Below, in pieces: positions 4,897 to 58,068 of a DNA stretch of 64,000 nucleotides. Origin of the DNA: Hexactinellida sp. DTS-2022. Lineage: Eukaryota; Porifera; Hexactinellida. The position numbers were made by a program, and so were the translations under genes. Positions within the stretch are counted from its first letter, which is position 1. Each line of letters opens with the position of its first letter. The notes beneath the pieces are model-generated. The model was not told where the DNA came from, did not search any database, and worked only from the letters and a program-made list of their open reading frames with translations. The stretch is taken from positions 3,524,501 to 3,588,500 of the forward strand of contig JAPNXP010000001.1 of assembly GCA_028753945.1 (NCBI GenBank), read 5' to 3'.

Positions 4897-7608
4897 TTAA
4901 TTTGCAAGAGGGACATTGTTCTCGCCAACTTCCATCAACAACTGAACAAACAAGATCCAGTAGAATCTGCCTAGATGGTCCTTCCACAAATATGCGATCA
5001 ATTCTGTATTTCCTTCGATAATAGTTAATATCTTCCAAACAGCTATTATGGAATCCAAGAGTAGCTCAGAGGGATATTTCAGACCTCCACGATCAGTAAG
5101 TTCCAATAGCCTATACTGAGATCCGGCAGATTCATCAAGTAGGAAATTTTTATCAATGATTAATATATCTTGACATATGTGGCATGGTGGACTACGTTTA
5201 AGGTATTGGTGTGCGGCATATCCGGCTATAAAAGCTAATGATTGAAGTATTTGGCCATCACACTCAATGTTGGATAGATCTGAAATTTCATTAAGGAAAG
5301 GGTGAAGATCAAAATCAGTATCCGAAAATGCCTTCTCTTCAGAAGAAAAGGATTGGATAAATTCTTGTAAAGAATAACTACAAGATTCAGACTGATAGGA
5401 AAATAGATTTAAAATATTTGAAATTCGCTCAGCTTCTAATATTTGCAGATAAGAAATGTGGTAATTGGCACCTGACATCATACGATAAAGTCCGAATCGA
5501 TGTTCCAAAGGGTCCGTCTGTAAGAAAGAGGTTAAAAGGTATGAATATCCACATGTGCCCGCCAGATAGTTAGTTATTTGTGGTAAAACAAGGCATGCAT
5601 GTCTTAAGCTTGTGAAAGTTTGTTTGCTTAATTTCCCATCTTTCCCAGGAAGTGAATCCCAAGCGGTTAACCAACAAACTATACGATCTAAAAAGGCAAA
5701 GCGGTCGTCATTAAATGTGAATGGTTGAGAGGGTGGATCGTTTAAACGAACATGCTTGTATGGAGCATTTACATTGAACATTTTCCATAAAGATAAGATA
5801 ATGTCAAGAAAATCTGAAGTATTAGATTTATATGCAGCACAACGTTGGTCATTTTGAATGGTTAAAGCAGATATTGTGGATTCATGTATGACCTTTAAAA
5901 CTAATTTCACATTCTGACGTTCTAAACAAGAAGGAAAACATGCTTTAAATGTTAACCTTGGAGCTAGTTTTGCCAAGCTTTCTTTCTCAGAAAGATATAG
6001 GGTACGGACATCGCGGAAAGAAGCTGTGCACAGTCTCAAAGGATAAGAACAATAATTGGTTTGTATATCTTCTAAATTAGGGTAAATAAAACTCTTACTC
6101 TCTGACTTTAGATTCAACCAGTTATTTCGTATTGTCTTCTATATGTGCACAAAATCAAAGGTGAGATATAGGATCCGATTTGGATCAGAAGGAGGCGGTA
6201 CTTGAGTTTCCAGCTTACCATTTTTAGAGAAGAATTTGAATAATTTTACATTGAGAGGATAGTTGTCGGTAGAGATAATATCTACAACTAAACCACAAAG
6301 CTCTATATCTTGAATACATAATACCACTATAGCGAATATCGTTTCCGCTGAAAGAGAAGCACAGGGTAACAAACGAACAATACAGGACCATTTTTTCTGA
6401 AGACTAGAGACCATGATAGCGAATACAGTTTTGACCGGATCTTCTGGTCTTAAACTAGCACCATATATCTTACCACCAATATATGAAATATCCGATTTGA
6501 CATGAATTTCGTCCATTTGGACAATTACATGTTTTTCAGGATCAGAGAAAGAATGAGTCGCTTGTTTGAGGAAGGGAAAATAGTCACTTTCAAGGCCAGA
6601 TGAAGAATATAACTTGAGTAGAGTATTGACATGAGGAAGAGTTCGAGAAAGCATCTGCTGGAGATATTATAACAGGCTGGAGAAATTAAATGTGTTTTAA
6701 GAGCCAAACTTGTGTTAGTACATTATATCTACGCCTGTTTTGAGGGACGAGGCTGTTTTCTAACTGGCATTGTATGAACTGCAGTCTTGAAAGTTCTGGA
6801 TAATCAGTTGATTCTAAATCGGATTCATTAGTTTGCAAAGGATTGATGGCTTGTTGGATATGGTCTTTCGCTAAAGAGATATGTGAACCAGTCGTCTCAG
6901 AAACAAAAGATTCACAGGGATGTGTTGATTTAGAAATTTCACCAAGAATCGTTTCAAGTTGTCGTATATCACTAATTGAGTTTAGCGAAAGCGAACAAGG
7001 TTTTCCATTACAATTGGCTCTAGCAGATAGATCAGAATGTACTATCAAGTACTTATTTACGAGGATATCGCTATTATTAGACTAGGGCGCATAAAAATTA
7101 TACTCTTTTCGTCAGAATACCATAATGACCATGTTTTTGGCAAGGGAAGCAAATATAACTTGTCAGGAATATCATGTAAACTGTTAATCTTGAACTTCTC
7201 TACCTCTTCAGCTTCTGAATTCAAGCTAAGTGTTAAAGTTTGGTTGAATAGTTCATATTCTCTTAAGTCGAGGGGACGCCTGCGCTTAGCACTAGATTGA
7301 TAGTATGATGGACAACCGGGTAGATAAACTGGTACAGCGCCATCTTTCAGCTTTGGGCTGACTCGAGGAATTTCACGGAAAGTTCCATCTCCATTTGGAA
7401 CTTTGTGGCTGTATTCTCTTTTTTCTTCGCGGAAATGTTTCACGCAAATATAAACAGCCTTCAATTCATCTAAATCATCCCTCCGAAGAGCCCTAAACCA
7501 GGAGTGTCTGAGTTCAGGTGGATTTTGTGGTAATTTGAAAACTGGTACAATTTCTGAAGAAGATTGGTAGTTGCTTTTGCAGCCAGGAGCCGAGCAGCAA
7601 TTAGGCAT
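4897..7608 (-). pseudogene. P-element transposase pseudogene (element A)
   Basis: Reading from 7608: an N-terminal THAP zinc finger (MPNCCSAPGC, then CVKHF), a linker, then the RNase H-like core in pieces at 7048-6686, 6654-6139 and 6117-4897. The three acidic residues are visible: D in VQMDEIHVK, D in ISTDNYPLN and E in TDPLEHRFGLYR. An FDFVHI motif precedes a stop where element B reads on. Frameshifts near 7070, 6710 and 6665 plus that stop break the frame, so no full transposase can be made. Unlike element B, the THAP part is not split by an intron, so introns may have been gained or lost, or the copy differs in lineage. Confidence 0.85.
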
Positions 7609-8255: not shown

Positions 8256-8560
8256 ATAGAAGCCAGCTGGAATTTATAAGTTAAAAAGGTGTTAAAGATT
8301 TGTCCGAATTTCTTAGTCGTCATTTGTCCGAAATGCGTTAACTGGCATTTGTCCGAATCGTAATTTGGGAATATGTCATTTGTCGAATCGTATTTTGGAA
8401 TATTGTCATTCCAAATTAAGATTCGGACAAATGACAATATTCCAAATTGCGATTCGGACAAACGCCAGTTAGCGCTTTCCGGACAAATTACAAATTCCTT
8501 CAAATGCATGAGACTCATTGAAGCTAATTGAATTTAATCTAATTAGATTAAATTTAATTA
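8256..8560. repeat. Hairpin of TTTGTCCGAAT repeats (MULE-TIR-like)
   Basis: 'catttgtccgaatcg' units on the left and 'cgattcggacaaatg' on the right fold about a centre near 8400. The motif matches the sub-terminal arrays of the MULEs (39026-41419) and the array at 57570-57810. It looks like two MULE-type termini brought together without a transposase, inserted at the edge of P element A. No clear target duplication was found. Confidence 0.55.
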
Positions 8561-17584: not shown

Positions 17585-19830
17585 TCAGAGACCGGGATAC
17601 GAGCAGCTGATTTCATCAGAACAGCTTATAATAACATAGACGATAGGATCGCGGCGTTTATATTTGCTTTCAACTTGGGCAACATTGGGGAGAAACTCAC
17701 GATAGTAATTCACCAGACCAAGAAAAGCTTTCAACTGTCGTAGAGAGGATGGCCTCTCCTGAATTTTTATCTTCTCAACTAGACGCGGCAATGGGAGATG
17801 ACCTTCAGCAGTGATTACATGCCTCACAAATTCAATCTCTGAGTACCCAAATCTGCATTTATCTCTCCTGAGCTGCATAGACGCACGACGATAGCATTCC
17901 AGTGTACTCCTCAGGTCCTGTATGTGAGCAGTCATCGTAGCCGAATGCACTAAGGTGTCGTCAACATAAGGAGACTATTAGTAGCAGACCTTAAGGCAGT
18001 ATCAATAGCGCGTTGGTAAGTACTAGGCGAATTGGTCAGCCCGAAGGGCATAACCACAAATTCATATTGTCCCCTAGGTGTGATAAAAGCAGTTTTCTCG
18101 CGGTCTTGGTCCGCTACAGGTATTTACCAGTACGCGGAGGCGCCATCCAGAGAAGAGTAATACTTGCTTCCGTGTAGCTTGTCTAGAATATCGCGGACTT
18201 CTGGAAGGGGTAAGAATCTCGCTTAGTATCGTTATTAAGTGATTTGTAGTCCACAGCAAACCTCATGGTTCCATCCTTTTTCTCGATTAGTATTACCCTA
18301 CTGCACCAAGGGGAGTTGGATGGTTTTATTATACCATTGCGGAGCATTTGGCGTACTTAGTATTGATGTTTTGTTCAGCTTGTGGTGATACGCGCATACC
18401 CTTCGCTTTCACTGGTCGAGTCGCCCCTGTAACATTTGAACGTTCGGCTAGGTGTGTAACACTTGGTTTCTTGGGATCAATAGCGAATACGTCCTGATAC
18501 TCAAACAAGAGCTTCCCTAGTGCCTCTCGTTCGTGAACAGCAAGTTTGGCGTTGATATCCAGTCTTTGGAAGAATAACTGTTGAATGGATCATCCAAAAC
18601 GCCTACAATTCCAGCCCTAGTCAAGGGCCACCTCCTCTCACAGTAACTTCCGTGCTCCACCACTTCGATCCCAACATCACTTTATGATTAATCCAATCGA
18701 ACTCGGTTGATTGAAATCGGTGCAGAAAGTCTCTTCCAAGGATTACTGTGGCTTCTGAGCTTTCAATCACCTGAAATTCGTGAAGAATTGCCTGTCCATC
18801 TCCTACGTCCACACTAATATACGCACATCCTTGTACTGCAATTGAAACTCCTCCAACGTCACCCACTCTACCGGGTTTAGTTGAGTATCCAACACCTAAC
18901 GATCGTAACGTACTAGTGTCGATTACCGAAGGTTGTGCACCTGAGTCTAGCATAGCCAAGGTTGCTCGGTTTGCCATGTTAACCGATATTACCACTCCAG
19001 CTTCATTAGCCCAGCCACCGCGTTCGTACAGAGGTTGGCTGGTGATATACACTTTTGCATAACAGTAACGACGAACGTGACCTTGCTTTCCACATCGTCG
19101 ACAATATCTTCTCGGACACGTTCTAGAGAAGTGTCCCGAACTGCCACATGTAAAACACGATCCTTTGCGAGAATTCCCGGCATTCGACGGGTATCTCTCT
19201 CTTGGTTGGAAACGCTCTTTCGAATCCCTGGTTGAGTGATGAACTACTTTAACTTCAGGATCTGTGTACCTGTCCGTTCGACCCGTATCAGTGTACCCGT
19301 CCATTTGACCATCACTTACTTTAACATCTGTTTGTGTTTGATTACCACATACTAGCGGGTTGGTTTGGCTTACTTCCTTGGTCTTTATCTCGCCCACGCG
19401 TTTAAGGTGCCGATTCCCATGATCCAATGGAATACCTTTCTCAATCAGAACTATTACGCTTTATAAATTCTCGTGCCTCCGGTTTATCGATCTCCTCCTT
19501 CGTTGATAGCCATTCCTTCATGGAATTTTGAACATTTGGGGGTAGTTGGCCTATTAAAATCAAGCACGCCATACGTAGTGGGGCATTCGCTCGCTCCGCC
19601 GATTACTTTAATTGATAAAAAAATCGTCGATACCTTGCCCTGGTTCCCAATCAGATCGCATAGGTTGACTATTTCCTTCTGCGCATCCTCGGGAGGGTCG
19701 AGACTCGAGACTCGGGGAATTACGGTACTTATGATATTTGACCCTTGGGGATTATCTCACTCGAAAAATGTATCATATTTTGATCTTCTCCAAAGTTTCA
19801 AAGGATGGAATAATAGGAGTTCTTATTGAA
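17585..19830 (-). pseudogene. Ty3/gypsy-type retrotransposon remnant (gag - protease - RT)
   Basis: Reading leftward from about 19830: gag C-terminus, two CCHC zinc knuckles near 19070-19160 (CFTCGSSGHFSRTC and CRRCGKQGHVRRYC), an aspartic protease with MLDSGAQPSVID, then LGRDFL. RT follows in several frames: an AVDYKSLN block near 18240, the YVDD active-site box at about 17957-17968, and KCRFGYSEIEF plus FLGLVNYYREF at 17950-17585. The order and the RT wording fit Ty3/gypsy. Stops and frameshifts separate protease from RT, no RNase H or integrase is readable, and no LTR pair was found, so it is a dead 5' fragment. Confidence 0.85.
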
Positions 19831-22656: not shown

Positions 22657-22735
22657 GGAAACGCGGAATTTGTCCTACAGAAATCGGATTGTGTACTGCA
22701 CTTTTGAGTTAGGAATTTGTCCTACGAGCAATTCC

Positions 22736-23015
22736 GGAATTTGTCCTACACTATATTAAAGATAGGAATTTGTCCTACAGAGAATTCCGGAATTTGTCCT
22801 ACACTATATTAAAGATAGGAATTTGTCCTACAGAGAATTCCGGAATTTGTCCACACTATATTAAAGATAGGAATTTGTCCTACAGAGAATTCCGGAATTT
22901 GTCCTACACTATATTAAAGATAGGAATTTGTCCTACAAAGAATTCCGGAATTTGTCCTACACTATATTAAAGATAGGAATTTGTCCTACACTGTATATTA
23001 TAGATAAGAATTTGT
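22736..23015. repeat. MULE-2 left TIR array, 53-bp unit
   Basis: About five copies of a 53-bp unit made of two half-units: GGAATTTGTCCTACAGAG plus AATTCC (24 bp) and GGAATTTGTCCTACACTATA plus TTAAAGATA (29 bp). The shared half-unit head is GGAATTTGTCCTACA. ORFs translated from this array (22770-22970) are artefacts of the repeat. Confidence 0.9.
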
Positions 23016-23201
23016 CCTATGAACAATTATGAACACTCATTTAACAATATTTTATATAATTATTAATTTTGTAATTATAGAAAGAATTATTAATTTTGTA
23101 ATTAATGTAACACAGTTTGATAAGAGATTAAATGCAATGAAATATATGGAAAAGTAGAGAATTTGTATTATGGGAAAAATTGTGTCTATTTGACTGATAC
23201 A

Positions 23202-24816
23202 TCACGGAAAAATCTGTAAAACTCCTTTTATATTTTCTCTACAGATAGGGCATGTAACTTTAAGATTTAATAATTGATTGGCACATGCCTCACAGAATCC
23301 TCCATGCACGCAATTATCGTGTAAGAGTGCGAAATTAGTCACTCTTGGTAGTAGACAAACGTGACATTTACTGCTATTGTCTTCTTCATTCATGTCATCT
23401 GATATATCACCTAAATTGTCAGCACTTTCAAAGGGTCCTGGTGCTAATTCAGCATTTACGTTTGCATGCCCTATTGTCAATGATATGGCATTGAGATAGT
23501 CGACTGCAGTATAAGTACCATTCAAATACTTATCTTTACACTGGTTTCTGCGGATCTGTTTATCCCTTGTAGTCGCATTAGGACCTCTTGTAGTGGCATG
23601 CCCATTCAACAACCTTTGCAATTCCAAATCGTTATCGGAAATAACATTGTTCAAACATCCCATGAACTTCCAAATGTTTGGATGGGAGCTCTTTATATAT
23701 GTTTTTAGAGATTTGTGATATGTTTCTGCCTCATTATGGCTCGCGGTTTCATGATAAAAAACTGATATGTTAACATGTCCATCCATCCATGTGGTATTAA
23801 AATACCTTCGAAATCTTTTGATAAGTTCGTTGTCCGAATCGATTACGCCATGTGGTGTTTCTAAAGATATATACACTGGACGTATCTCTTCTTCTGGCAG
23901 TAGTGGTAATGCCATTAGTTTTCGGATCCATACTTTGAAAGTTGCATTATGCGTATATAATTTTGCAAGTCCGATTTTCTTAACCTTTTCAAAGACTGCT
24001 TTCGTAAAATGGAACCAGCAACCAATTATTGTGATATATGGATATGTTTGTGCTAGAGCATTCCTTGGAGCTATTTCAAAATCACCAATCGCGAAAGTAG
24101 GTTTAAAATCAGGAAATAATTGACGAATTGATAAAAATACAGCATGATATAGAGCTTCAGATTTACTTGTCATGAGAACATGTATAGCGGGAAAACATGC
24201 CCATCAATGTGAACGAAGATTGTAAACAGTTGATAAAAGAGCCGTGGAACATTAAAGTTCCATCAAAGTGAATCATCGTTGAACTCTTTAGCATGTTTCT
24301 CATACACCTTGAACCAATAATAATAGCAATGTTATCTCTGTTGATGACTGTTTGTAAATGGTTTGAATAATGTTGTGACTCTTGCAACAATTGATCAAAT
24401 TCTAATGCTGTAGTAGGTAATTTAGGTTGCAGGATTCTTCTCCTCTTACACATACTACTTTCCAATTTTTTGAAGGTAACAGTAGATGACCCCTCAGATT
24501 CTCGGCAAGTATAATTAAATATCTCTCGAAGGTTCGAGGTAGATATTTCCGCTTTTCGCTTAATTTTATTACTTAGTTTAATTGCATCATGATTATATGC
24601 TCCAGCTTCATCGTTGTGAAAAGTAGAAATTTCGAGTAAATTTGCTGATTTGTTTATTTTCCCATAACATTCACAAGATTGAGTTCGAAACAGGCTACAT
24701 TTGACGTAAATAAGGGATTCAGATTCCCTAGCCTTGATATAACGGAAACCTTGACAAAAATAATTCGAGGAATTTTTCTTTTTACCTTCAATAACGGTGT
24801 ATTCCATAGAGATCAC
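23202..24816 (-). pseudogene. MULE-2 transposase with FLYWCH finger, DDE core and C-terminal RING
   Basis: The first frame (24816-24163) starts with a FLYWCH-like finger (C40, C48/C50, H67, H76; the usual H-x-H is stretched) and reaches the first catalytic Asp in MIHFDGTLMF. The second frame (24173-23202) continues with AIGDFEIAPRN (second Asp), GCWFHFTKA (the C-x2-H motif of MULE cores) and HNEAETYH (catalytic Glu), then a C3HC4 RING: C270, C273, C288, H290, C294, C297, C308, C311, with tail CRENIKGVLQIFP. One +1 frameshift at 24189-24197 (cgggaaaac on the plus strand) separates the frames; otherwise the gene is complete. The RING type and aromatic tail resemble IAP/MDM2 C-terminal RINGs, which are E3 ubiquitin ligases; ligase activity here is inference. 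Confidence 0.85.
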
Positions 24817-25044
24817 TTAGAAATAGTTGGTAGAATTTCAAAATGAGTAAATATGAATAGTTTTGCAATCTATAACTCGATACAATGGTATATACTACTG
24901 TAATGTGGAATTGTCAAATATAGAATACATAGACACTTGTTAGGTCTTATTAAATACAAAACAATCACTATAAATTTGTTATTGACGCTTATTGTAAATA
25001 CAATACTAGCGAGAAATACAAAACAATTACCACGAGTTGTAGGA

Positions 25045-25446
25045 TAAATTCCTTTCTTTAATATAGTGTAGGACAAATTCCGGAATTCTTTGTAGGACAA
25101 ATTCCTATCTTTAATATAGTGTAGGACAAATTCCGGAATTCTCTGTAGGACAAATTCCTATCTTTAATATAGTGTAGGACAAATTCCGGAATTCTCTGTA
25201 GGACAAATTCCTATCTTTAATATAGTGTGGACAAATTCCGGAATTCTTTGTAGGACAAATTCCTATCTTTAATATAGTGTAGGACAAATTCCGGAATTCT
25301 CTGTAGGACAAATTCCTATCTTTAATATACTAGTGTAGGACAAATTCCGGAATTCTCTGTAGGACAAATTCCTATCTTTAATATAGTGTAGGACAAATTC
25401 CTACACTACTGATTGTAGGACAAATTCCTACATATTTGTAGGACAA
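25045..25446. repeat. MULE-2 right TIR array, 53-bp unit
   Basis: Seven or so inverted copies of the left-array unit (TAGGACAAATTCCGGAATTC etc.). One unit has a 4-bp expansion near 25330 and one a single-base deletion near 25228, mirroring a one-base deletion in the left array near 22850. Confidence 0.9.
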
Positions 25447-25459
25447 ATTCCAGCTACCC

Positions 25460-27219: not shown

Positions 27220-27812
27220 CAGTGATGTGCTCCGTTACTAGTAACGGAGTAACGGTAACGGTAACGGTAACGGTAACGGTAACGGTAACGGTAACGGTAA
27301 CGGTAACGGAAAAAGTAACGGTAACGGGTGTCGTCAAGTAACGGTAACGGGAAAAAGTAACGGTAACGGGCGTCGCGGAGTAACGGTAACGGAAAAGTAA
27401 CGGTAACGGGCATCGCCGAGTAACGGTAACGGAAAAAGTAAAGGTAACGGACATCCGTTACTTTTAACTAGTTACCGTTATCTTTAATCAGTTACTCTTA
27501 CCATTACTTTACCGTAATACAGTACCCGTTACTACGTTAAACTTATTCCATTGCCATTACAACGTTATTTTAAATCAGTTACCGTTACATTAAGGTAACT
27601 GTGCTGAATAAAGTTAAACGGATAAAATTAACAAAAGTAACGGAGTAACGGCAACGGAAGAAATAAAGTAACGGTAACGGAGTAAAAGTAACGTGAGAAA
27701 AATAAGTAACGGTAACGGAACAAATAAAGTAACGGTAACGGAGTAACGGTAACGGGAGTATAAAGTAACGGTAACGGAGTAACGGAAGGTTTAGTAACGG
27801 AGCACATCACTG
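27220..27812. mobile_element. hAT-like element built of GTAACGG repeats
   Basis: Terminal CAGTGATGTGCTCCGTTACT and its inverse, with exact 8-bp flanks GTTTAAAC (27212-27219 and 27813-27820). The interior is dominated by (GGTAAC)n and variants: about nine pure hexamer copies at 27246-27308, then spaced 'agtaacggtaacgg' units on both sides of an inverted centre near 27460-27600. The ORFs read from it are hexamer translations, not proteins. A single end of the same family is at 503-550. Confidence 0.8.
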
Positions 27813-29454: not shown

Positions 29455-29670
29455 TCACTAGTGCGAATTTTCTAAGTTGTCATTAGCTCTACTGATATTT
29501 CATAGAGTTGTCAATAGTTCTACTGATATGTCATAGAGTTGTCATTAGTTTACTGATATGTCATAGAGTTGTCATTAGTTAGTTCTACTGATATTTCATA
29601 GAGTTGTCATTAGTTCTACTGACATTTCATAGAGTTGCCATTAGTTCTATTGTAAGATTCATGGAGTTGA
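29455..29670. repeat. MULE-3 left TIR array, 31-bp unit
   Basis: Units headed GTTGTCATTAG with CTACTGATATTTCATAGA start at 29476, 29507, 29538, 29568, 29603 and 29634: mostly 31-bp spacing with one 30 and one 35. The right end (about 31857-31920) keeps only one to two units. Confidence 0.85.
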
Positions 29671-29835
29671 CATTAGGGTTTCTTATTCTTCAATAATTTT
29701 CTTTTAGATATCACCTATTGTGTTCTTTGATCACTACCTTTTTTATTGAATTTGTGGGTTTCCCACTCAAAACTGAAAACACATAACAATATTTCTAAAT
29801 TACTATAAATTATCATTCCCTACACACATCGTAAA

Positions 29836-31786
29836 ATGGAATACAAAATAAATAATTATCGACGACAGACTGGCCAAGTTCTCACAACAGCAGATGCCCA
29901 TAACTATCTTAGACGCAAATATACAGATAATGTAGTCTACCTGAAATGTGCTCTCTTCAGAGATGGCTGTAGAGCTACGGCAAAATTGAATAAGAACACT
30001 GACTTGATTACCCCGGGCTCAATCCATAACCATAACTTGCTGAAATACAGTTCTGATATTTTCCAATTAAAAAAGAGATGTAAACAGTGCACGTACCTCA
30101 CAAGATAACCTTAGGAAACTTGTCTGAACTCTTCTTTTGAGCTTTGCATGATAACTTTAAGCACCATTGTTTGTAGTTGATTTTGCGTCAAATATCGATA
30201 ATTCATCAGAACTAACTTGACCGAGCCATCTCTTTGTAAAATATCGTTTGAGCTTGTCTATTTGGCTTTTTCTGTGTCATTAAGTGTCTTCGGAGTACTT
30301 ATAAGGTTATATGTTGGTTGTATAAGTGTACTTGGCAGGAAGGGAATCGCCATTAAGTGTCTTACAAATGTAGATAACTCTTGATTGTTGTGAAAAATCT
30401 TTATAAGTCCGAATTTTTGAGTTTTATGCCAAATGCGTTGTGTAAAATGAAACCAACAGCCCTTTACTTCAACATCTGGATAAATCTCTCTCAATGCATT
30501 TCGTGGAGCGATTTCCCAGTCTGACATACATGTTTGTGGGTTGAATTGGGGTATGAGAATGCGAATGCTATTCAAAATGCACTTGTATAGCTCTTGTTCT
30601 TTATCAGTTAAAAGACAATGGATAGCAGCTAAGTTGTGTCTGCCAACTGTTACAAAAACTGTCCACAGTTGATAGAATTGCTTCGGAACACAGTAGAAGG
30701 TTCCATCGAACTGGATATGATTTATTCGTGGCATCAATTCACTCATTCTATCCATAGGCGTCGGAAATGGGCCCGCCGAGCCTTCGGACCGCCCGGCCGA
30801 AGGCTCCGGGGCCGGCCCAATCGATTCCGGGGCCGCTACATTCACGGGCCGGGTAGCCCCTTTGGGCCACCCGGCCCATGCCGGGTGGCCGGGTGGGTCC
30901 GACGCCTATGATTCTATCAGAGAAGAATATCAGTGCAGTTTGGTTATTCACTGAAATTGTATTTTTATGAAACTTTTCAAAAGTGGTGGTTGAATCAAGT
31001 TGATATCATTTCAGATAATTCAGAAGCATTTGAAGGTATTTCGGTTGCGATCTTCTTCGCGAGCGATATACATAGAGGATTCGCACTCATTGAAGGTTAC
31101 CTCTTGCGGAAAAGGATCCTCTCGTACTTCATCATCAAATATTTAGTCATCCCCGAATTTGGAGCTTTTTATTATTATTTAACGAAATAATCGTAGACAC
31201 TGATCTTGAAGCTGAAAGATTGTTGAGTGGAAAAGAAATAAGCAGGCCGAGAAAACTTAAGAATGTTATTAATGAGGAGCGTCGTATAGCTCATAAAGAT
31301 AAGTTGCAGAATGGGAACTATACACCTGGAGCAGAGTATTTTATAAGGATTTAAAAAAAAAATTTAATGTTTTCGTGGAATAAAAAAATGGATTTTCGGT
31401 AGAAATGGAATCTTGAAATGGATATCAGACGATAAAAACTCACTATTCAAGGGAGTAAAAAAATGAAAATAGGAATTAAAAAATGGGCTTATAATATACC
31501 CTGACCTGGAGGCTATAAATGATACAATCGGAAAGATAGCAGTTCATTTGTAGAGGCAGAATATTTCGATTTTTCCGACAAATCTGAAACATAAGATGAA
31601 TTGAAGAGTACGATAAATAATAATTTTGCAGTTTGTCTTCATCCCAGAACATCGACATGGATCTTTTTACCATGTAAGCATGCGAATTGCTGTACAGGAT
31701 GCAATAAAAGAATTGAAGAACTTGGAAATCCCTGTCCAACATGCCGTTCTCCAATTGAGAATCGATTCCAAATATTTATTAGTTAA
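29836..31786 (+). pseudogene. MULE-3 transposase, rearranged
   Basis: FLYWCH finger at 29836-30105 (C38, C45, H64, H66), ending near SQDNLRKL. The next block of the protein (IFDDEVRE... through SYHAKLKRR) lies on the minus strand between about 31147 and 30118, and the plus strand resumes at about 31146 with SHPRIWSFLLLFNE and continues to YTPGAEYF; a RING frame follows at about 31605-31786. The core keeps IQFDGTFY (first Asp), CMSDWEIAPRN (second Asp) and GCWFHFTQRIW, but the catalytic Glu codon is a stop (NNGA*SYH). The first RING cysteine is Phe (NNFAVC), while the tail FQIFIS is kept. A 158-bp MITE interrupts the core. This copy cannot make transposase. Confidence 0.85.
30753..30910. mobile_element. 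GC-rich hAT-like MITE, family CATAGGCGYCG
   Basis: CATAGGCGTCGGA at both ends in inverse orientation, with an exact 8-bp target duplication ATTCTATC (30745-30752 and 30911-30918). It is about 70 percent GC in an AT-rich surround and is made of nested GGCC/CCGG palindromes. It sits inside the MULE-3 coding region between IFFSDRI and the DGTFY motif. ORFs across it (30636-30951) are its shadows. Confidence 0.85.
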
Positions 31787-34235: not shown

Positions 34236-35468
34236 TTAATTTTTACTCTTTTTAACTGTTTTTTTTCCTGTAATACTGCCAGTTTCCGTTACACTTTTGA
34301 CAAAATCAACGTGTTCTTTTTCAAATTTCTTTTTTTCCTCAATAAAATAATGCTGTTTCATTTGAAAAGTTTGTTGGTGATCTCTAATATCCTTTCGAAA
34401 TTCATGTAAATTGAGATTTAGATCTTTCATTCTTACTTCATGCTTGTTCAAAAGGTCTCTATATTTTGCCTGATACCTACCTTCAACTTCAATTTCACTT
34501 ATATGCATTTTAGAATTAAGAACTGAATTTTGTATTATATTAGGTTTTGATGTGGGTACACAAGTAAGTTTATGTGCGCGAAACTTTTCATATAGTTTAG
34601 TATGTATCAGGTCCTTCAAACTTTGCATATGAAACCTCACTAAAACATCTTGAAGTAGACTAAAATCGCAATGCTCTAAATTGTATATATCAACTATTCC
34701 CCACGGGTACTCCCGTCCATGGACCAATTTACCATCCACCTGGATTGCATTATTGCTCCCAACAACACCAAAAGGTAACCTGTCAATGAATTTGGTGTTC
34801 ATCGCACTGTCAATATCAGATAAAGCAAATTCATTAGAAAAGTCGTAAATTCCAATAGAATTAACACTGATATCTTCTAACAATTGCTTTTTGTATTTTA
34901 CTAATTCTTCAGTTGATAATGTATCCGCTTTAGCAATTATTGGAATCAGATTGACTTTATCATGTAATGCTTTCATGAAGGATATATCAAGGTCTTTGAG
35001 ACCGTGGCCATTAGGAGAAATAAAGTAAAGACAACAATGCACTCGTCTATCTTCAACACTTAAACGATTAACCTTAGATTCATTTTCAAAATACTCTTCA
35101 TACATTTCATTAATATAAGACAAAATAGGATCTGAACAATTGTGATTATCAATAAAATCGGCAAATCCGGGTGTATCAACTAAGGTGAGTGTCAAATTAA
35201 TTTCATTCTCGAAAAGATGAACCTTAGTTGTCTCTATTGATGTAGTTTTAGGAATATTTGTAATAGTGCTATCACTAGATTTATCCGCAGAATAAATATC
35301 AGTCAAAAAGAGAGAGTTAATAAGTGTCGATTTTCCAAGGCCTGATGCACCTACCACCATTAGAGTAAAGTCAAATCCATTTGCAACTGATTTTTTATAA
35401 ACTTGCGAGGGAAGATTTCCGAATCCAACATAGCCAGAAAGAACTTTCTCGAATATTTTCTCCATCAT
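34236..35468 (-). CDS. SEPTIN7: Septin, SEPT7-like GTPase
   Basis: A complete 410-residue septin in one exon. Septins are GTP-binding proteins that form hetero-oligomeric filaments at the cell cortex, cytokinetic ring and cilium base. Visible: a polybasic stretch before the G domain (KKSVANGFDFT), P-loop GASGLGKST (40-48), G3 DTPGF (98-102), G4 AKAD (179-182), the septin unique element around YPWG (255-258) to about 300, and a C-terminal coiled coil at about 330-395. SGYVGFGNLPSQVYKKSV near the N terminus is the hallmark of the SEPT7 group. Animal SEPT7 genes usually have many introns, so an intronless copy is notable; it could be a retrocopy or reflect intron loss. The frame has no lesion and no poly-A tail or flanking duplication was noticed. 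The start could be either of two adjacent Met codons. Confidence 0.93.
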   Translation of the reverse strand: MMEKIFEKVLSGYVGFGNLPSQVYKKSVANGFDFTLMVVGASGLGKSTLINSLFLTDIYSADKSSDSTITNIPKTTSIETTKVHLFENEINLTLTLVDTPGFADFIDNHNCSDPILSYINEMYEEYFENESKVNRLSVEDRRVHCCLYFISPNGHGLKDLDISFMKALHDKVNLIPIIAKADTLSTEELVKYKKQLLEDISVNSIGIYDFSNEFALSDIDSAMNTKFIDRLPFGVVGSNNAIQVDGKLVHGREYPWGIVDIYNLEHCDFSLLQDVLVRFHMQSLKDLIHTKLYEKFRAHKLTCVPTSKPNIIQNSVLNSKMHISEIEVEGRYQAKYRDLLNKHEVRMKDLNLNLHEFRKDIRDHQQTFQMKQHYFIEEKKKFEKEHVDFVKSVTETGSITGKKTVKKSKN

Positions 35469-38780: not shown

Positions 38781-39069
38781 AAGTTTCATTCTATTCTGAA
38801 AAGAATTCTCCATAAACTGGAGACCGCATTAATAACTTCATCAGAAAGATATTCAAGCCCCTCGATCTGCTAACTCGATGAGAATCAAGTGAAAATCCTC
38901 ACATTCAAGAGAAAGACTTTTGAGTTGGGTGAGTAAGGACACACATTCAGGACATAGAGAAGTGGCGGCTTTAACCTTTTTCGAATATAACTTCGACTTA
39001 AATATACTATGTATAGCATAACCAGGGGTGCATTTGTCCGACACAGTATGTAGGCATTTGTCCGAATTT

Positions 39070-39310
39070 TAGATGTTGGCATTTGTCCGACAACATTTGT
39101 ACTATGTTGGCATTTGTCCAACAACTTTTGTACTATGTTGGCATTTGTCCGACAACCTTTGTACTATGTTGGCATTTGTCCGACAACCTTTGTGCTATGT
39201 TGGCATTTGTCCGACAACTTTTGTACTATGTTGGCATTTGTCGGACAACCTTTGTGCTATGTTGGCATTTGTCCGACAACTTTTGTACTATGTTGGCATT
39301 TGTCGGACAA
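39070..39310. repeat. MULE-1 left TIR array, exact 31-bp period
   Basis: Eight units beginning TTGGCATTTGTCCGACAAC start at 39076, 39107, 39138, 39169, 39200, 39231, 39262 and 39293, each 31 bp apart. Variation is mostly single-base (tccg/tcgg/tcca; cttttgtac/cctttgtgc). Three overlapping ORFs across it are repeat translations. Confidence 0.95.
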
Positions 39311-39459
39311 GTTCTTAATTTGCTTTCCTATAATACTTTCTGTCCTATATAGCATATTCTACAATATATTTTAATCCTGATTATTATTTTGAAGATTACT
39401 ATAACAATAATAAGATTAAGAAATATGATTATGAAAGATAAGAAATTCTGTTGATTATT

Positions 39460-41071
39460 TCAGTTAATAAATATTTTAAAACTATTCTGAATAACAGAAC
39501 GACAAGTAGGACATGCTTCTCCAAGTTCTTCAATTTGGGTACTGCAATCCTCACAACAGTTTGCGTGTTTGCAGGGCATGAAAATCCATGTTGTTTCTCG
39601 TGCCCTCAAACAGACCACACACAAATTTGCATTCAAATTTTCGATAATACAAGCATCAGTCTGGTTGGAATTATCTTCTTCATCTGAACTTACATCAAAT
39701 ATACTTATCTCCGTTAAAGACCCCACCGTTTTACTGATATCCTTAATATATTCTAATGGCGAAAAAGCACCTTCGATGAGTTTATCCTTACATTTACGAC
39801 GATACTCCTCATTTAGCAAACAGTTTTTTTCTTTGCTCTTGTAATTGGTAATCCATTTTTCAATCTTGCTAGTTCGTTGTCCGTATCTAGTATAGTTTCG
39901 TTAAGTGTTTCCAAAAAGTTCCAAACCCTTGGTTGGTTGCATTTAATTATAGATTTCAATCTGCCATGGTAGCTCTCTGCCCCGTTATTTGTAGAAATTC
40001 CGTGGTTCCAGATAGATAACTCTTCACTAGATACTTGGTTTATCCACCTTCTTTGTATATACCTCTTCAATTTGGCAAGATTAACAAATTGATCATCAGT
40101 TAGGTTAGGACCTGGGACTGTAATTTCATTGAAAACAGGGTGTATTGTTTCTGGTGGCAGGAAAGGGAGGGCCATAATGTGACGCAAAAAAGTGTGAAAT
40201 GCAGCATTATGGGCATATGCATTTACCAAATTACACTTTTGAACCATTTTCCAAATACGCTGGGTGTAATGAAACCAACAACCTTGTAGCTTGATACCAT
40301 TGTATACTGTTTTGAATGCGTTTCGTGGTGCAATTTCCCAGTCTGAGATAGATATTTGTGGATTAAATTGAGGAATTATAGATTGTATTTTGAATAATAC
40401 GGCCTCATAGAGTTCTTGAGATTTACCAGTTAAAAGACAGTGTATAGCTGGGAGGACGTGCTGATCAACAATAATAAATATTGTCCACAGCTGGTAAAAT
40501 TGTTTGGGCACAGTATAAAATGTACCATCAAAGGATATTTCTAAAATTTCAGCCAGTAAAACCATAATTTCATCAGAAAAAAAATGAAAGCTTGATTATC
40601 ACCGACTGTTACGATACCCTTCAAAAATAATCCATAAGGGGTACCTGATAATGAAGTTTCTAATTGGAATGAAGTTTGGGGTATCTTTGGCTGAAGTTGT
40701 CTTCTAGCGCGATACATCAGTGATTCACACTGAGCAAATGTAATTGCTCTTCCTCTGACATCTCTCCGTGTGACATCATTGAATATCTTCCGCAGATTTT
40801 CGCCAGAAGATTTAGCAGCTTCTTTACAATTAGCCTTCACGATATACAAACCATCGTCGTACTTATCAATCCCATGGTTGTGATCTGCTTGTAATCTAAT
40901 CAGATTACTTTCTTGGATGAGTTTAGCAGTAGACTTGCACCCGTTACGGAAAAGAACGCATTTCAAATAAATTTGGTCACCTCTCCTTTTGGACGCAAGA
41001 TATTTGTGACCTTCAGATGTTTGATATATTGAGCCGCGATTTTGTTTATAATGAGTTGTAGTGTAGTCCAT
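39460..41071 (-). pseudogene. MULE-1 transposase with FLYWCH, DDE core and C-terminal RING
   Basis: Frame 1 (41071-40541): FLYWCH finger (C38, C45, H64, H66). Frame 2 (40565-39813): ISFDGTFYTV (first Asp), SISDWEIAPRN (second Asp), GCWFHYTQRIW and NNGAESYHGRLK (catalytic Glu). Frame 3 (39819-39460): linker, then a C3HC4 RING from CVVCLRARETT through CKHANCC to CPTCRS, tail FKIFIN. The three frames are joined by single-base shifts in homopolymers: A8 at about 40576-40583 and T7 at 39824-39830 (plus strand). All catalytic and zinc residues are kept, so the copy is recent or the shifts are sequencing errors. Confidence 0.88.
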
Positions 41072-41221
41072 GTCAATTTTAATATCCTAGACTAAATTAT
41101 ATCCATTCTTATATACAAATGATGTTTGTAAAAGAAGTGTTGAAGTTATACAAGATATCTGATAATTAATCAACAAATATGTGTGTTGATTCAAAACATC
41201 AAAGTGAGAATTGGAAATGCT

Positions 41222-41400
41222 GTATTCGGACAAATGCCAACATAGTACAAAAGTTGTCGGACAAATGCCGACATAGTACAAAGGTTGTCGGACAAATGCC
41301 AACATAGCACAAAGGTTGTCGGACAAAAGCCAACATAGTACAAAAGTTGTCGGACAAATGCCAACATCTAAAATTCGGACAAATGCCTACATACTGTGTC
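41222..41400. repeat. MULE-1 right TIR array
   Basis: About five inverted 31-bp units (GTCGGACAAATGCCAACATAG), then the unique sub-terminal part shared with the left end ('ctaaaattcggacaaatgcctacatactgtgtcgg'). Confidence 0.9.
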
Positions 41401-42938
41401 GGACAAATGTAGGCGCTCCCATAACCAGCTATAAAGGTTAAGGCTTGACGAGTTTCTTTAATTGGTGAAAAATCAAAGTTTTGATGGAGAATAAAATAGT
41501 AAGAGCTCAGATCTAGTTCAGGTTTCTCAACATTCTCAGTTTCAATGTCAACAGAAAAAGTGTTAACGAATTCCTTCAATGAAGTTTCAAATGTATTATC
41601 TTGGCTTCGATAGAGTTTAAAAATGTTAGAGAGTTTTATCCGGCGTTCGCTTTCAAGAATTTGGCAAATGGATATATTGTAATTACAACCAGACATTAGC
41701 CTGTATACCCCAAAGTGTTTTTCTAGAGAATCTTTTGTAAGAAACCTGTCAAGACATAAGACAAACCACAAGCGTCACTGGTTAAGTAGTTCACAATTCT
41801 TGGTAAAACTCGGAATGTATGAATTAAGCTGGTAAATGTATGTGAGCTAAGTTTTCCATCTCTACAGATACAGTTGAGTGTCTTCCAATCCTGAAGCCAT
41901 GAAACAAATCTAGAAAAGAACTCAAAACGTTAATCCTGTAATATGAAAACCCTTGAATCAGGATCGAGGAGGCGGATATCTTTCCCTGGACTTTGTATGT
42001 TACACATTTCCAAAACCGGGTTATAAGTGAAATAAATTGAGAAGTTTTATTTGAAATGTTATTCTTTTGATTGTATAACAGCATTGTATGTTGACTGATC
42101 CCATACCGCAAGAGCCAAAGGTACACTTTGCCTTTCAAGTGTGGATGGCCAAACATCTCTAGAATTTATGAGCTATCTTGGCATTTCAAAATTGTTCAAG
42201 CTTGTAAATATTTTCTGAGATCGATGAAAGAAGCAGTTGAAATCTGATAAGGAAAAGTTCCACCAAAATAATGATCAATAGAAGGAAAAGTAAATGTCCT
42301 ATTGGTATCCTTTTGATTAATTCAGTTATTCCGGATACACTCAACTATGTGCACCGGATCAAACATCAAAAAAATGGATCTTGTAGGGTCTGAAGGGTTA
42401 GGTCAAGTTAATTCTAAATTAGATGAATTGTCAGCTGGTAATTTGAATAATCTAACGTTATTAAGTTGGTAATCGTCTGTACAAATCGCTATTACTCTAA
42501 GATCACATTTCTCAATGTCAATAATAACTGGTTTTATTATTGGAAGTAATTCAAGAGGGGAGAAGTCTAACTATCTCTGAACACTTTGTGTAAAGGCCTG
42601 AACTTTAAAAGCTAGTACAGTTTCAGCTGGGTGACATTCAGAAGATGTGTCCTCTGCATCATCTAAATCCCAATTGATACAAGAGGATCCAAAAAATTTC
42701 CACCTTTGTAAGTGTAATAGGTCTTCACATGAATTTCGTCGAGCTGTAAAAGAATATTCCTTTTATATTTGTTAAAAGCCTTACAATAAACTTTAAGATA
42801 ATCAATAAAATATGTATCTAAGCCCATGTTTGAATATAGTCTTCGGAGTGTTGATGGATGAGGCAAAAAGAGGCATTCCAATGATTGCAGATAACGGTAA
42901 CATCCAGAAGATATCAGTTGGGCTTTGAGAGAAAGAAC

Positions 42939-53734: not shown

Positions 53735-54790
53735 GAGCCCTTCGGTCTCGGTCGCTTTGCGACAGATCGGTGCTACGCACCTCAAGTTAACGGCCGCTAT
53801 GCGGCCTTACTCCTCACATTTTCTACCATGGAAATGGTAGATAGGGACGTTATGATTTTGATTTTCATTAATTTGTTTACCTATTTGTGTAAACAACAAC
53901 AACAACAAAGACTCATATTAGAATTTTATAAATGCGAAATTCGTGTTCAGCACACTTGTTTACTTATAATACCTATTGAAAGTTAACTTCTAGGTTGATT
54001 TTGAATTTTCATTAAATTGTTTAGCTATTTTGAGTAAACAACAACAACAACAACAACAAATATTCATATTATAAAATTTAAACGCAAAATTCGTGTTCAG
54101 CATACTTGTTTACCTACAATACCCGTTGAAAGCTAACTTCTAGGTTGATTTTGAATTTTCATTAATTTGTTTACCTATTTTGTGTAAACAACAACAACAA
54201 ATATTAATATTAGAAATTTATAAACGCGAAATTCGTGTTCGGCATACTTGTTTACCTATAATACCCGTTGGAAGCTAACTTCTAGGTTGATTTTGAATTT
54301 TCATTAATTTGTTTACCTATTTTGTGTAAACAACAACAAAAAATATTAATATGAGAAATTTATACACGCGAAAATCGTGTTCAGCATACTTGTTTACCTA
54401 TAATACCCGTTGAAAGCTAACTTCTAGGTTGATTTTGAATTTTCATTAATTTGTTTACCTATTTTGTGTAAACAACAACAACAAATATTCATATGAGAAA
54501 AATATAACCGCGAAAATTGTCTTCAGCATACCTGTTTACCTATAATATCCGTTGGAAGCTAACTTCTAGGTTGATTTTGAATTTTCATTAATTTGTTTAC
54601 CTATTTTGTGTAAACAACAACAACAAATATTAATATGAGAAATTTATAAACGCGAAATTCGTGTTCAGCATACTTGTTTACCTATTATAACATTTGAAAG
54701 TTAGTTTATATCCCAATATTAATTGCGGTTTCTATTCCCCCATCACTTTAATATAATCCGGACAAACAAACAAACACACACACAAACAAC
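53735..54790 (+). mobile_element. Helitron-like element with hairpin cluster and long tandem repeats
   Basis: A 5' part with three consecutive short hairpins (53750-53810), then about six tandem units of roughly 120-145 bp (see separate entry), then a 3' tail 'ggacaaacaaacaaacacac' ending 'tttaataatatagat'. This layout (unique head, central minisatellite, AC-rich tail) resembles non-autonomous Helitron/Helentron-type elements. No Rep/helicase is present; the class is tentative. Confidence 0.5.
53865..54710. repeat. Tandem repeat, about 120-145-bp unit
   Basis: Each unit reads 'tttcattaatttgtttacc', 'tattttgtgtaaacaacaac', an (AAC)n run, 'aaatttataaacgcgaaatt', 'cgtgttcagcatacttg' and 'gaaagctaacttctaggttg'. 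About six units; the (AAC)n run varies in length and so do the units. Confidence 0.85.
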
Positions 54791-57569: not shown

Positions 57570-58068
57570 TGAGGTGCCTGCATTTGTCCAAATTTTGATG
57601 TTGTCATTTGTCCGAAAATGTGGGACTGTTACTTGTTCGAATCGTTTTTCTGTATGTTGTTACTTTTCCCGAATCGTTTTTCAGTATGTTGTCACTTGTC
57701 CGGATCGTTTTTCAGTATGTTGTCACTTCTCCGAATCGTTTTTCAGTATGTTATCACTTGTCCGAATCGTTTTTCAGTATACTGTCACTTATCCGAATTG
57801 TTGATTGTTTTTGACACTAAATATTTTATACTCTTATTATTTTTTGACACTATATCATTCTATTGTTATTTCATTTATATTATTGATTGTTTTTCAAATG
57901 CAAATTTGAATATTGTTTTGCGGTACTAAAACCAACTTAGCACCAGATATAAATTAAAACAATTTGTTTTCTTTGAAACAAGATGATACTTATACCTTGA
58001 TACCAAGTTCCTATTAGTTATAGTACATTTATGATGCATATAATTACTAGTTTTGTAGATAAATATAA
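57570..58068. repeat. MULE-type TIR array inserted in the left P TIR
   Basis: Starts GAGGTGCCTGCATTTGTCC, like the right end of MULE-1 (GGAGCGCCTACATTTGTCC), then about five 31-bp units of TGTCCGAATCGTTTTTCAGT (57635-57805). The rest up to 'ataaataaccatagcc' is AT-rich and unmatched. The right P TIR is continuous across this point, so it is an insertion. No inverse end was found, so it is a one-ended or decayed MULE derivative. Confidence 0.7.

Follow-up and report, generated by a model that had tools for sequence, protein, structure and literature searches.

The window, by which we mean the whole stretch of 64,000 nucleotides of Hexactinellida sp. DTS-2022 analysed here, contains three copies of MULE transposable elements, referred to as MULE-1, MULE-2 and MULE-3. 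All three have a MULE/DDE core that scores above the cut-off of PF10551. Their features, with the evidence for each in brackets, are as follows.

MULE-2
24163..24816, minus strand: first piece of the transposase, 217 codons, with the N-terminal part and the first catalytic Asp (..IHFDGT..) (similarity to relatives)
23202..24203, minus strand: second piece of the transposase, with the MULE/DDE core (second Asp, C-x2-H, Glu), an acidic linker, a RING and an aromatic tail (Pfam)
23241..23366, minus strand: RING, C1 to C8 (motif pattern, Pfam, PDB matches)
23205..23240, minus strand: linchpin Arg and aromatic tail RENIKGVLQIFP, then stop (sequence, alignment)
25038..25451: terminal array upstream of the ORF, repeated motif GGAATTTGTCCTAC, spacing mostly 24-29 bp (TRF, spacing)
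22665..23019: terminal array downstream of the ORF, inverted copy (TRF, inverted match, spacing)

MULE-1
39026..41419, minus strand: whole element between target-site duplications (ORFs, similarity, TSD)
39017..39025 (left) and 41420..41428 (right): target-site duplication CATAACCAG, 9 bp (exact repeat)
39502..39621, minus strand: RING, tail FKIFIN (PF13920, 46.0 bits)
39030..39310: terminal array of 31-bp iterons with 24-25 bp steps (TRF, inverted match, spacing)
41226..41409: terminal array, inverted copy, 31-bp iterons (TRF, inverted match, spacing)

MULE-3
29791..30105, plus strand: N-terminal piece (tblastn)
30106..31241, minus strand: middle piece, which contains the MULE core and is inverted with respect to the pieces on either side (tblastn; PF10551, 41.2 bits for 30261-30845)
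31145..31783, plus strand: C-terminal piece with the RING, tail FQIFIS (tblastn, motif pattern)
29475..29676: terminal array of 31-bp iterons (TRF, spacing)

The original prediction had read MULE-2 as a protein in which the transposase core is followed by a C-terminal RING. Both domains of the second piece score above their Pfam cut-offs (PF13920 for the RING, E 9e-8, 32.2 bits, cut-off 27; PF10551 for MULE, E 1e-6, 29.5 bits, cut-off 27.6), but the protein does not occupy a single ORF: positions 24816-24163 and 24203-23202 are read in different frames, and this copy is therefore broken by a frameshift. The ligand spacing given for MULE-2, C-x2-C-x14-C-x-H-x3-C-x2-C-x10-C-x2-C, is exact at 23366-23241 on the minus strand, and an extra His with the spacing H-x4-H lies ahead of the ligand His. 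The two terminal arrays of MULE-2 match each other in inverted orientation at 93% over 337 bp. Structure prediction for MULE-2 was of low confidence, with a mean pLDDT of 52.9 for the RING (3 rows) and 36.4 for the second piece (5 rows).

MULE-1 had been expected to end in the same manner, and it does so with a RING of 46 bits against PF13920 and the tail FKIFIN, although its transposase is broken into three ORF pieces (41071-40541, 40565-39813 and 39819-39460). Both copies of its TSD were placed, and their 9 bp fall within the 8-11 bp of MULEs; a stricter search that required matching ends missed this TSD because the outermost bases of the two element ends differ. MULE-3 has undergone an internal inversion of ~1.1 kb, which leaves its N- and C-terminal pieces on the plus strand and its core on the minus strand. 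Its RING region and its tail FQIFIS are as foreseen, but the domain is defective, with an in-frame stop ahead of the RING and the first RING ligand Cys missing. Among the copies for which it was sought, a FLYWCH domain was recognised by Pfam in MULE-1 only, at 23.9 bits, barely above the cut-off of 23.6; the first piece of MULE-2 matched 0 Pfam families at E<=1 and hence gave no FLYWCH match. No TSD of MULE-2 or MULE-3 was found by a repeat search at their flanks. Since all three window copies are broken, they were by themselves insufficient to settle the question of the RING.

The remainder of the window is also rich in repeats and pieces of mobile elements. Iteron-type arrays with the motif TTGTCCGAAT occur at 8298-8410, which has a nearby inverted partner, and at 57627-57802, with no adjoining MULE match in either case; both are likely foldback or MITE-like derivatives. 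P-element-like pieces with a TNP-like RNase H N-terminal domain lie at 6142-6654 and at 59385-60368 (plus strand), and a THAP domain is found at 7060-7608, within the P-element-like stretch 6142-7608 (minus strand). The neighbouring ORF at 4900-6117 matched no family. A retroelement piece at 18624-19427 (minus strand) has a CCHC zinc knuckle and a gag-type aspartyl protease. At 34239-35468 (minus strand) there is an uninterrupted ORF of 410 aa that matches septin-7 over residues 7-390, with no visible intron; such a gene is suggestive of an animal genome. Arrays of GTAACG-type units occupy 27249-27785. A 142-bp tandem repeat at 53853-54700 looks like a dispersed satellite, as a similar 142-bp unit also occurs upstream of the MULE in L055, one of the relatives described below.

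A RING-bearing MULE lineage across the genome

Relatives of the window copies, numbered as L loci, were searched for in the same genome (112.4 Mb, 18 contigs). One of them, L007, is uninterrupted and encodes 540 aa from stop to stop; used as a query, it recovered copies of as little as 38% identity. Among the best 81 of 2519 first-look candidates scored, 28 of the 30 near-full-length matches to L007 (start no later than residue 25, extension beyond residue 460) reach the RING end, as do 50 of the 60 matches with a start no later than residue 400 and the same extension; with MULE-2 as the query, the RING end is reached by 92 of 105 matches that start no later than residue 150 and extend beyond residue 250 (best 121 of 1830), all of these being counts of best-scoring candidates rather than copy numbers, obtained with stops read through and with RING-bearing queries that favour RING-bearing copies. 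Two further searches of the genome scored the best 150 of 961 and the best 150 of 606 candidates. When 150 RING matches were compared with MULE matches (87 of the 91 rows of the L007 search and 76 of the 123 rows of the MULE-2 search), 46 overlapped and 9 more lay within 1.5 kb, which is a lower bound because MULE-1 of the window was itself missed.

At a threshold of E<=0.001, Pfam recognises both MULE and RING in all 22 single-ORF relatives, which had been picked for the RING and whose ORFs measure 523-609 aa from stop to stop; FLYWCH is recognised in 5 of them. The genome also holds RING-less FLYWCH-MULEs; the 10 that were scanned all score above the cut-offs for MULE and FLYWCH, and none of these 10 matches RING at E<=0.001. 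Several of the RING-less proteins stop in the last part of the core, at the alignment position where the linker begins in RING-bearing proteins. Neither of the outcomes that the original prediction had named as refutations was observed: RING similarity was recovered above the cut-offs in MULE-1 and MULE-2, 28 of 30 near-full-length matches of this lineage carry the domain, and the RING-less MULEs form a separate group. The RING has been lost or altered in a few members of the tree set, L021 and L029 being without the RING end and L024 having C2 replaced. A chance motif was ruled out by the Pfam scores and the many RING-bearing copies, and a single-copy chimera by the many copies together with the co-inheritance of RING and core.

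Several further observations were made in the course of these searches. L019 and L020 (G000:C13:4110537-4118547) are uninterrupted RING copies with identical ORF translations that lie in opposite orientation, with their ORFs ~1.8 kb apart. L003 and L004, which are outside the tree set, represent another RING-bearing MULE-like type with the RING CRVCLVQEADTLILPCRH.. and, in L004, the tail FLQIFL. Several families of RING-less FLYWCH-MULEs (L082-L087, L047-L067), mostly with 15-bp iterons, are near the published Phantom layout. A scan of viral contigs gave 45 pattern matches, none of which was confirmed. Of eight contig ends retrieved, one consists of N, and no plain telomere repeat was seen in the displayed portions of the other seven. 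Rfam gave no match over the gathering score.

Phylogeny of RING-bearing and RING-less elements

For phylogenetic analysis, 88 loci were reduced to the 60 with a longest ORF of at least 380 aa, and removal of the exact duplicates L009 and L020 left 58. An ingroup tree of 39 rows was built from the shared part only, with RING and linker left out, after 19 of the 58 had been dropped (fragments, near-copies, a non-MULE and two outgroups). For a second tree, in which two very distant MULEs served as the outgroup, 17 of the 58 were dropped (fragments, near-copies and a non-MULE).

In the unrooted ingroup tree the 28 RING-bearing rows are split from the 11 RING-less rows by a single branch (support 100/100; 100% of 200 bootstrap trees), i.e. 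the RING was gained or lost once. In the outgroup-rooted tree the RING label needs two changes and the RING-less rows are nested within the RING-bearing rows (97/97), which would, if read literally, mean that the RING was lost. We give this tree little weight because of its very long outgroup branch, which carries a long-branch warning. Given that the published Phantoms Tm1 and Muta1 are RING-less, parsimony favours a gain of the RING, although the rooted tree points the other way.

Distances between RINGs follow distances between cores (r 0.80 in 25 rows, with 0 of 2000 permutations as high), which indicates that the RING has travelled with its transposase. Both the 100/100 branch and this correlation bear out the proposal that the RING is an inherited part of this MULE lineage.

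Constraint and conserved residues

Codon models were applied to 26 rows, i.e. 25 loci and the second piece of MULE-2, or to 23 rows in the case of the N-terminal region; the 26-row set, as well as the 22-row set used for alignment, had been picked for bearing the RING. Omega came to 0.078-0.082 in the RING, close to the values of the DDE core (0.085) and of the N-terminal region (0.081-0.085); it was lowest in the 11-codon tail (0.05-0.06) and highest in the linker (0.17-0.18). These values are model-based and rough, as the lineages are far apart (their trees measure 43-130 substitutions per codon site) and the RING has only 41 codons, so that it is the contrast between RING and linker that matters. 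An omega of 1 was worse by 278 log units for the RING and by 33 for the linker, and was thus rejected for the linker too. The linker tree is 2-3 times as long as the core tree and the tail tree about twice as long, and mean amino-acid identity is 0.47 in the RING, 0.47 in the core, 0.43 in the tail and 0.17 in the linker. The RING is under strong purifying selection and is constrained as much as the core; the dN/dS comparison across copies that the original prediction had put forward thus came out in its favour, with the RING (~0.08) close to the core and below the linker.

Among the columns that do not vary in the 22-row alignment are C488, C491, H506, C510, C513, C524, P525, C527, R528 and I531; C504 (C3) is nearly invariant, and the other seven RING ligands are invariant. 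In the core, D191 and D253 are invariant and E373 nearly so (L007 numbering), and in the N-terminal region C47, C54, H73 and H75 are invariant in all 22 rows. Each of the 26 chosen RINGs has V/I two residues after C1, a Pro following C7, the linchpin Arg following C8 and a tail of the form [IV][FY]. The full C3HC4 ligand set is present in 23 of these rows; L069 and L070 are without the third Cys but have a His in MDM2-like spacing, and C2 is replaced in L024. In IAP and MDM2 proteins, residues of this kind make the contact with the E2, hold the linkage between E2 and ubiquitin in place and form the dimer of RINGs. Binding and activation of the E2, and not dimerisation, are the task of the linchpin Arg, of the Pro that follows C7 and of the V/I at C1+2. 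The RING is predicted to bind both zinc and an E2.

Class of the RING and a putative ligand shift

A profile of 20 RINGs compared with solved structures matched cIAP2 first (2.4e-11) and cIAP1 next, with MUL1, CGRRF1, MGRN1, MEX3C and XIAP among the lower matches; for the IAPs, the tail lies inside the match. The L007 RING alone matched CGRRF1 first, followed by MDM4, MYLIP and cIAP2, and the MULE-2 RING matched RNF8 first in PDB (26.8 bits), MDM2 next (24.7 bits) and then RNF4 and MDM4. For the RINGs of L073 and L070, which belong to the MULE-2 subclade, MDM2 was the first match and their H-x4-H aligned on the H-x4-H of MDM2, with the first Cys pair out of register in the L073-MDM2 alignment; in MDM2 these His are zinc ligands. 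MDM4 is a weak E3, and in the alignment with the L007 RING it has Lys at the linchpin position.

Assignment of the RING to the IAP/MDM2 class with an aromatic tail, as originally made, is upheld by the nearest profile matches (cIAP1/2), by MDM2 as the nearest match of L073 and L070, and by the tail in 26 of 26 RINGs. The likeness to cIAP1/cIAP2 and MDM2 consists of a C-terminal PF13920-class RING in which C8 is followed by Arg and, for the IAPs, of a tail aromatic within the match. The difference is that the present RING is part of a transposase, in which Pfam recognises no BIR, UBA, CARD or p53-binding domain.

Within the MULE-2 subclade, the old third Cys is still present between the two His in MULE-2, L072 and L073, and is Tyr or Phe in L069, L070 and L071. 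The simplest reading of these sequences is that the zinc ligand shifted within the existing RING by way of intermediates in which both sets occur together, and that L069, L070 and L071 would rely on the putative His ligand. The alternative is that the RING of this subclade was replaced by an MDM2-like RING.

Terminal arrays, iteron spacing and mobility

Inverted matches between the two flanks were found in 22 of the 24 elements tested and consist mostly of tandem-repeat arrays, i.e. long, foldback-like TIRs with tandem repeats of the Phantom type. The iteron motif varies by lineage and only the spacing is common; TTTGTCC was ruled out as a common iteron motif for this reason. The iteron spacing of RING-bearing elements is about twice that of RING-less elements and goes with RING status. 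All 29 loci of the RING-bearing clade have at least one array with a median spacing of 23-32 bp, either 31 bp with 24-25 bp steps (MULE-1 types) or ~24 and 29 bp mixed (MULE-2 types), whereas the spacing is 15-16 bp in 14 of 15 RING-less loci, L082 being without such an array. These numbers include several loci that are near-copies of one another. The loci of the RING-bearing clade are 19 of the 30 in L009-L038 and 10 of L055-L066; L058, L060, L065 and L066, whose ORFs end before the RING, were placed in this clade by similarity, as were L049, L051, L052, L054 and L059 in the RING-less set. L068 and L083 were left out of the comparison. Additional arrays with other medians (in bp) are present in L015 (11), L024 (38), L029 (14), L031 (16), L036 (15, 17), L037 (11) and L055 (81) of the RING-bearing clade, and in RING-less L049 (34), L054 (29) and L087 (22, 23). 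Since the RING changed only once, its link to iteron spacing is one contrast and not a replicated correlation, and the RING is inseparable from other differences between the two groups. The diverged FLYWCH region of the RING-bearing set, recognised in 5 of 22 proteins as against 10 of 10 RING-less ones, could by itself explain a new footprint.

A TSD scan of 20 elements yielded five symmetric exact repeats (9 bp in L031 and L036; 8 bp in L016, L020 and L024), with a slop that chance can satisfy. In 13 chosen pairs of RING-bearing elements, the longest piece that aligns measures 1.3-3.5 kb and shows 97.7-99.9% identity (e.g. L055/L057, 99.7%; L073/L074, 99.9%; L019/L034, 99.9%). The inverted arrays, the TSD and these near-identical dispersed copies point to recent mobility of RING-bearing elements, with duplication of larger stretches as an alternative for individual pairs. 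A domesticated gene was ruled out on the same three grounds.

Discussion

The best reading of these sequences is that they form a mobile MULE lineage of the Phantom type, in which the core of the transposase is followed by an acidic linker, a predicted E2-competent RING of the IAP/MDM2 class and an aromatic tail. We consider it probable that this RING is an active, dimerising E3 put to use by the transposase at the ends of its element, the most probable substrates being the transposase itself and its neighbours. The model for such a role is RAG1, a transposase-derived recombinase with its own RING. It is hypothesized that the N-terminal zinc-finger region binds the iterons of the inverted terminal arrays, and that many subunits bound side by side would have their RING tails paired, as in the dimerising RINGs of IAP and MDM2. 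Pairing would switch on ubiquitin transfer at the element ends, with the transposase itself and adjacent proteins as the likeliest targets, and ubiquitination may then limit or disassemble the transposase-DNA complex post-cleavage.

The main rival is a pure pairing module, i.e. a RING used for dimerisation or assembly only, which pairs subunits along the 23-32 bp iterons and across ends with no need of ubiquitin transfer. The roughly doubled iteron spacing that goes with the RING (29 of 29 as against 14 of 15 loci) counts in favour of such a module, and the short spacing is found in RING-less relatives as well as in the published Phantoms Tm1 and Muta1 (PMC3169594, PMC5225508). A role in dimerisation only would also predict the same conservation of the RING, which counts against the E3 reading, and the aromatic tail of all 26 RINGs also speaks for such a role. 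We nonetheless regard this explanation as unlikely, because the E2-type residues (linchpin Arg, Pro after C7 and V/I at C1+2) are likewise present in 26 of 26, and MDM4, a weak E3, has Lys in the place of the linchpin.

A ligase used offensively, to have silencing or chromatin proteins of the host degraded in the vicinity of the element, would fit the strong, lineage-wide constraint on the RING and the action of the RAG1 RING on histone H3 and karyopherin alpha 1 (PMC3124419). However, the 22 relatives have no further Pfam domain able to bind a host substrate, and the RING omega of 0.08 is not the fast evolution of host-parasite conflicts, so that this role seems quite improbable. The loss of the third Cys in L069, L070 and L071 might instead suggest that the RING no longer binds an E2 and serves only as a structural zinc knuckle to stabilise the C terminus, which we find very doubtful: the E2-contact residues are kept in 26 of 26, the third-Cys change keeps a His aligned on an MDM2 ligand, and RING-less relatives, which stop at the core end, manage without the domain. 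A chance join, a host-gene chimera in a few copies or a domesticated gene, to which the broken state of all three window copies could lend itself, is hardly credible and is refuted by the many RING copies, the co-inheritance of RING and core, the inverted arrays, the TSD and the near-identical copies.

For the RING as an active ligase, a more specific history can be offered only tentatively, and we would not expect it to hold in full. A one-time gain of the RING would have re-set the geometry of the ends from ~15 bp, or 1.5 turns of the helix, to a spacing of either ~31 bp or 24 and 29 bp in alternation, such that the RINGs of neighbouring subunits pair and the ligase is on only on a filled array; the MULE-2 subclade would then have shifted from C3HC4 towards the MDM2 pattern. 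The alternative is the reverse order, in which the RING was lost as the spacing shortened.

RING-bearing transposases are in print for Chapaev/RAG1, the Transib/Chapaev group being the source of RAG1 (PMC4411706, PMC3124419), and the RAG1 RING has E3 activity and is reported to ubiquitinate itself, karyopherin alpha 1 and histone H3 (PMC3124419). RAG1 and RING-bearing Chapaev (Transib superfamily) resemble the present elements in that a DDE recombinase is combined with a RING, which in RAG1 lies within the dimerisation domain (PMC3124419, PMC4411706), but they belong to a different superfamily and their RING precedes the catalytic core. In the Ghost clade of MULEs (aphids, spiders, cnidarians), the copy of the aphid Myzus cerasi has a RING zinc finger alongside the MULE transposase (PMC6446971). 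Unlike in the elements described here, that RING lies in a separate ORF of 420 bp beside a truncated transposase, no TIR or TSD was found there, and SWIM is tabulated as the zinc finger type (PMC6446971). Compared by description, the Myzus cerasi Ghost could be a frameshifted member of the RING lineage described here. The same source lists a C3HC4 RING for 37_Pi, a MULE of an oomycete, and describes aphid Phantoms in which the ORF is followed by a minisatellite (PMC6446971).

The elements also resemble Phantom (Tm1-A of Meloidogyne, Muta1 of Aedes aegypti), with which they share a MULE DDE core, inverted tandem-repeat arrays and a TSD of 8-9 bp (PMC3169594, PMC5225508); their N-terminal region may correspond to the FLYWCH-type N-terminus of Phantom. 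Tm1 repeats have a spacing of 13-15 bp (PMC3169594) and Muta1 has 12-bp repeats with 3-4 bp spacers (PMC5225508), and it is the RING-less elements of this genome that match the Phantom layout, including its spacing at ~15 bp. The Tm1-A and Muta1 proteins measure 496 and 504 aa, and the word 'ring' does not occur in either paper (PMC3169594, PMC5225508). Relative to Phantom, the RING-bearing elements have an added acidic linker and RING, iterons of 23-32 bp and a diverged FLYWCH region. No printed fusion of FLYWCH, MULE and C-terminal RING was found in open-licence papers. The remark in the original prediction that no described family with this layout came to notice needs to be qualified in view of the RING transposases of the Chapaev/RAG1 group and the separate-ORF RING of Ghost.

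The combination of a transposase with a RING is known; the fusion of a C-terminal RING to a MULE transposase seems to be a fresh form of it and comes with an unexpected link to iteron spacing. The doubled spacing ties a difference in protein to a measurable difference in DNA. Uninterrupted natural copies are available for asking what role the predicted ligase plays, and the RING-less elements of the same genome provide a built-in comparison. If the RING was indeed gained independently in MULEs, a ubiquitin ligase of their own would be a repeated solution for transposases.
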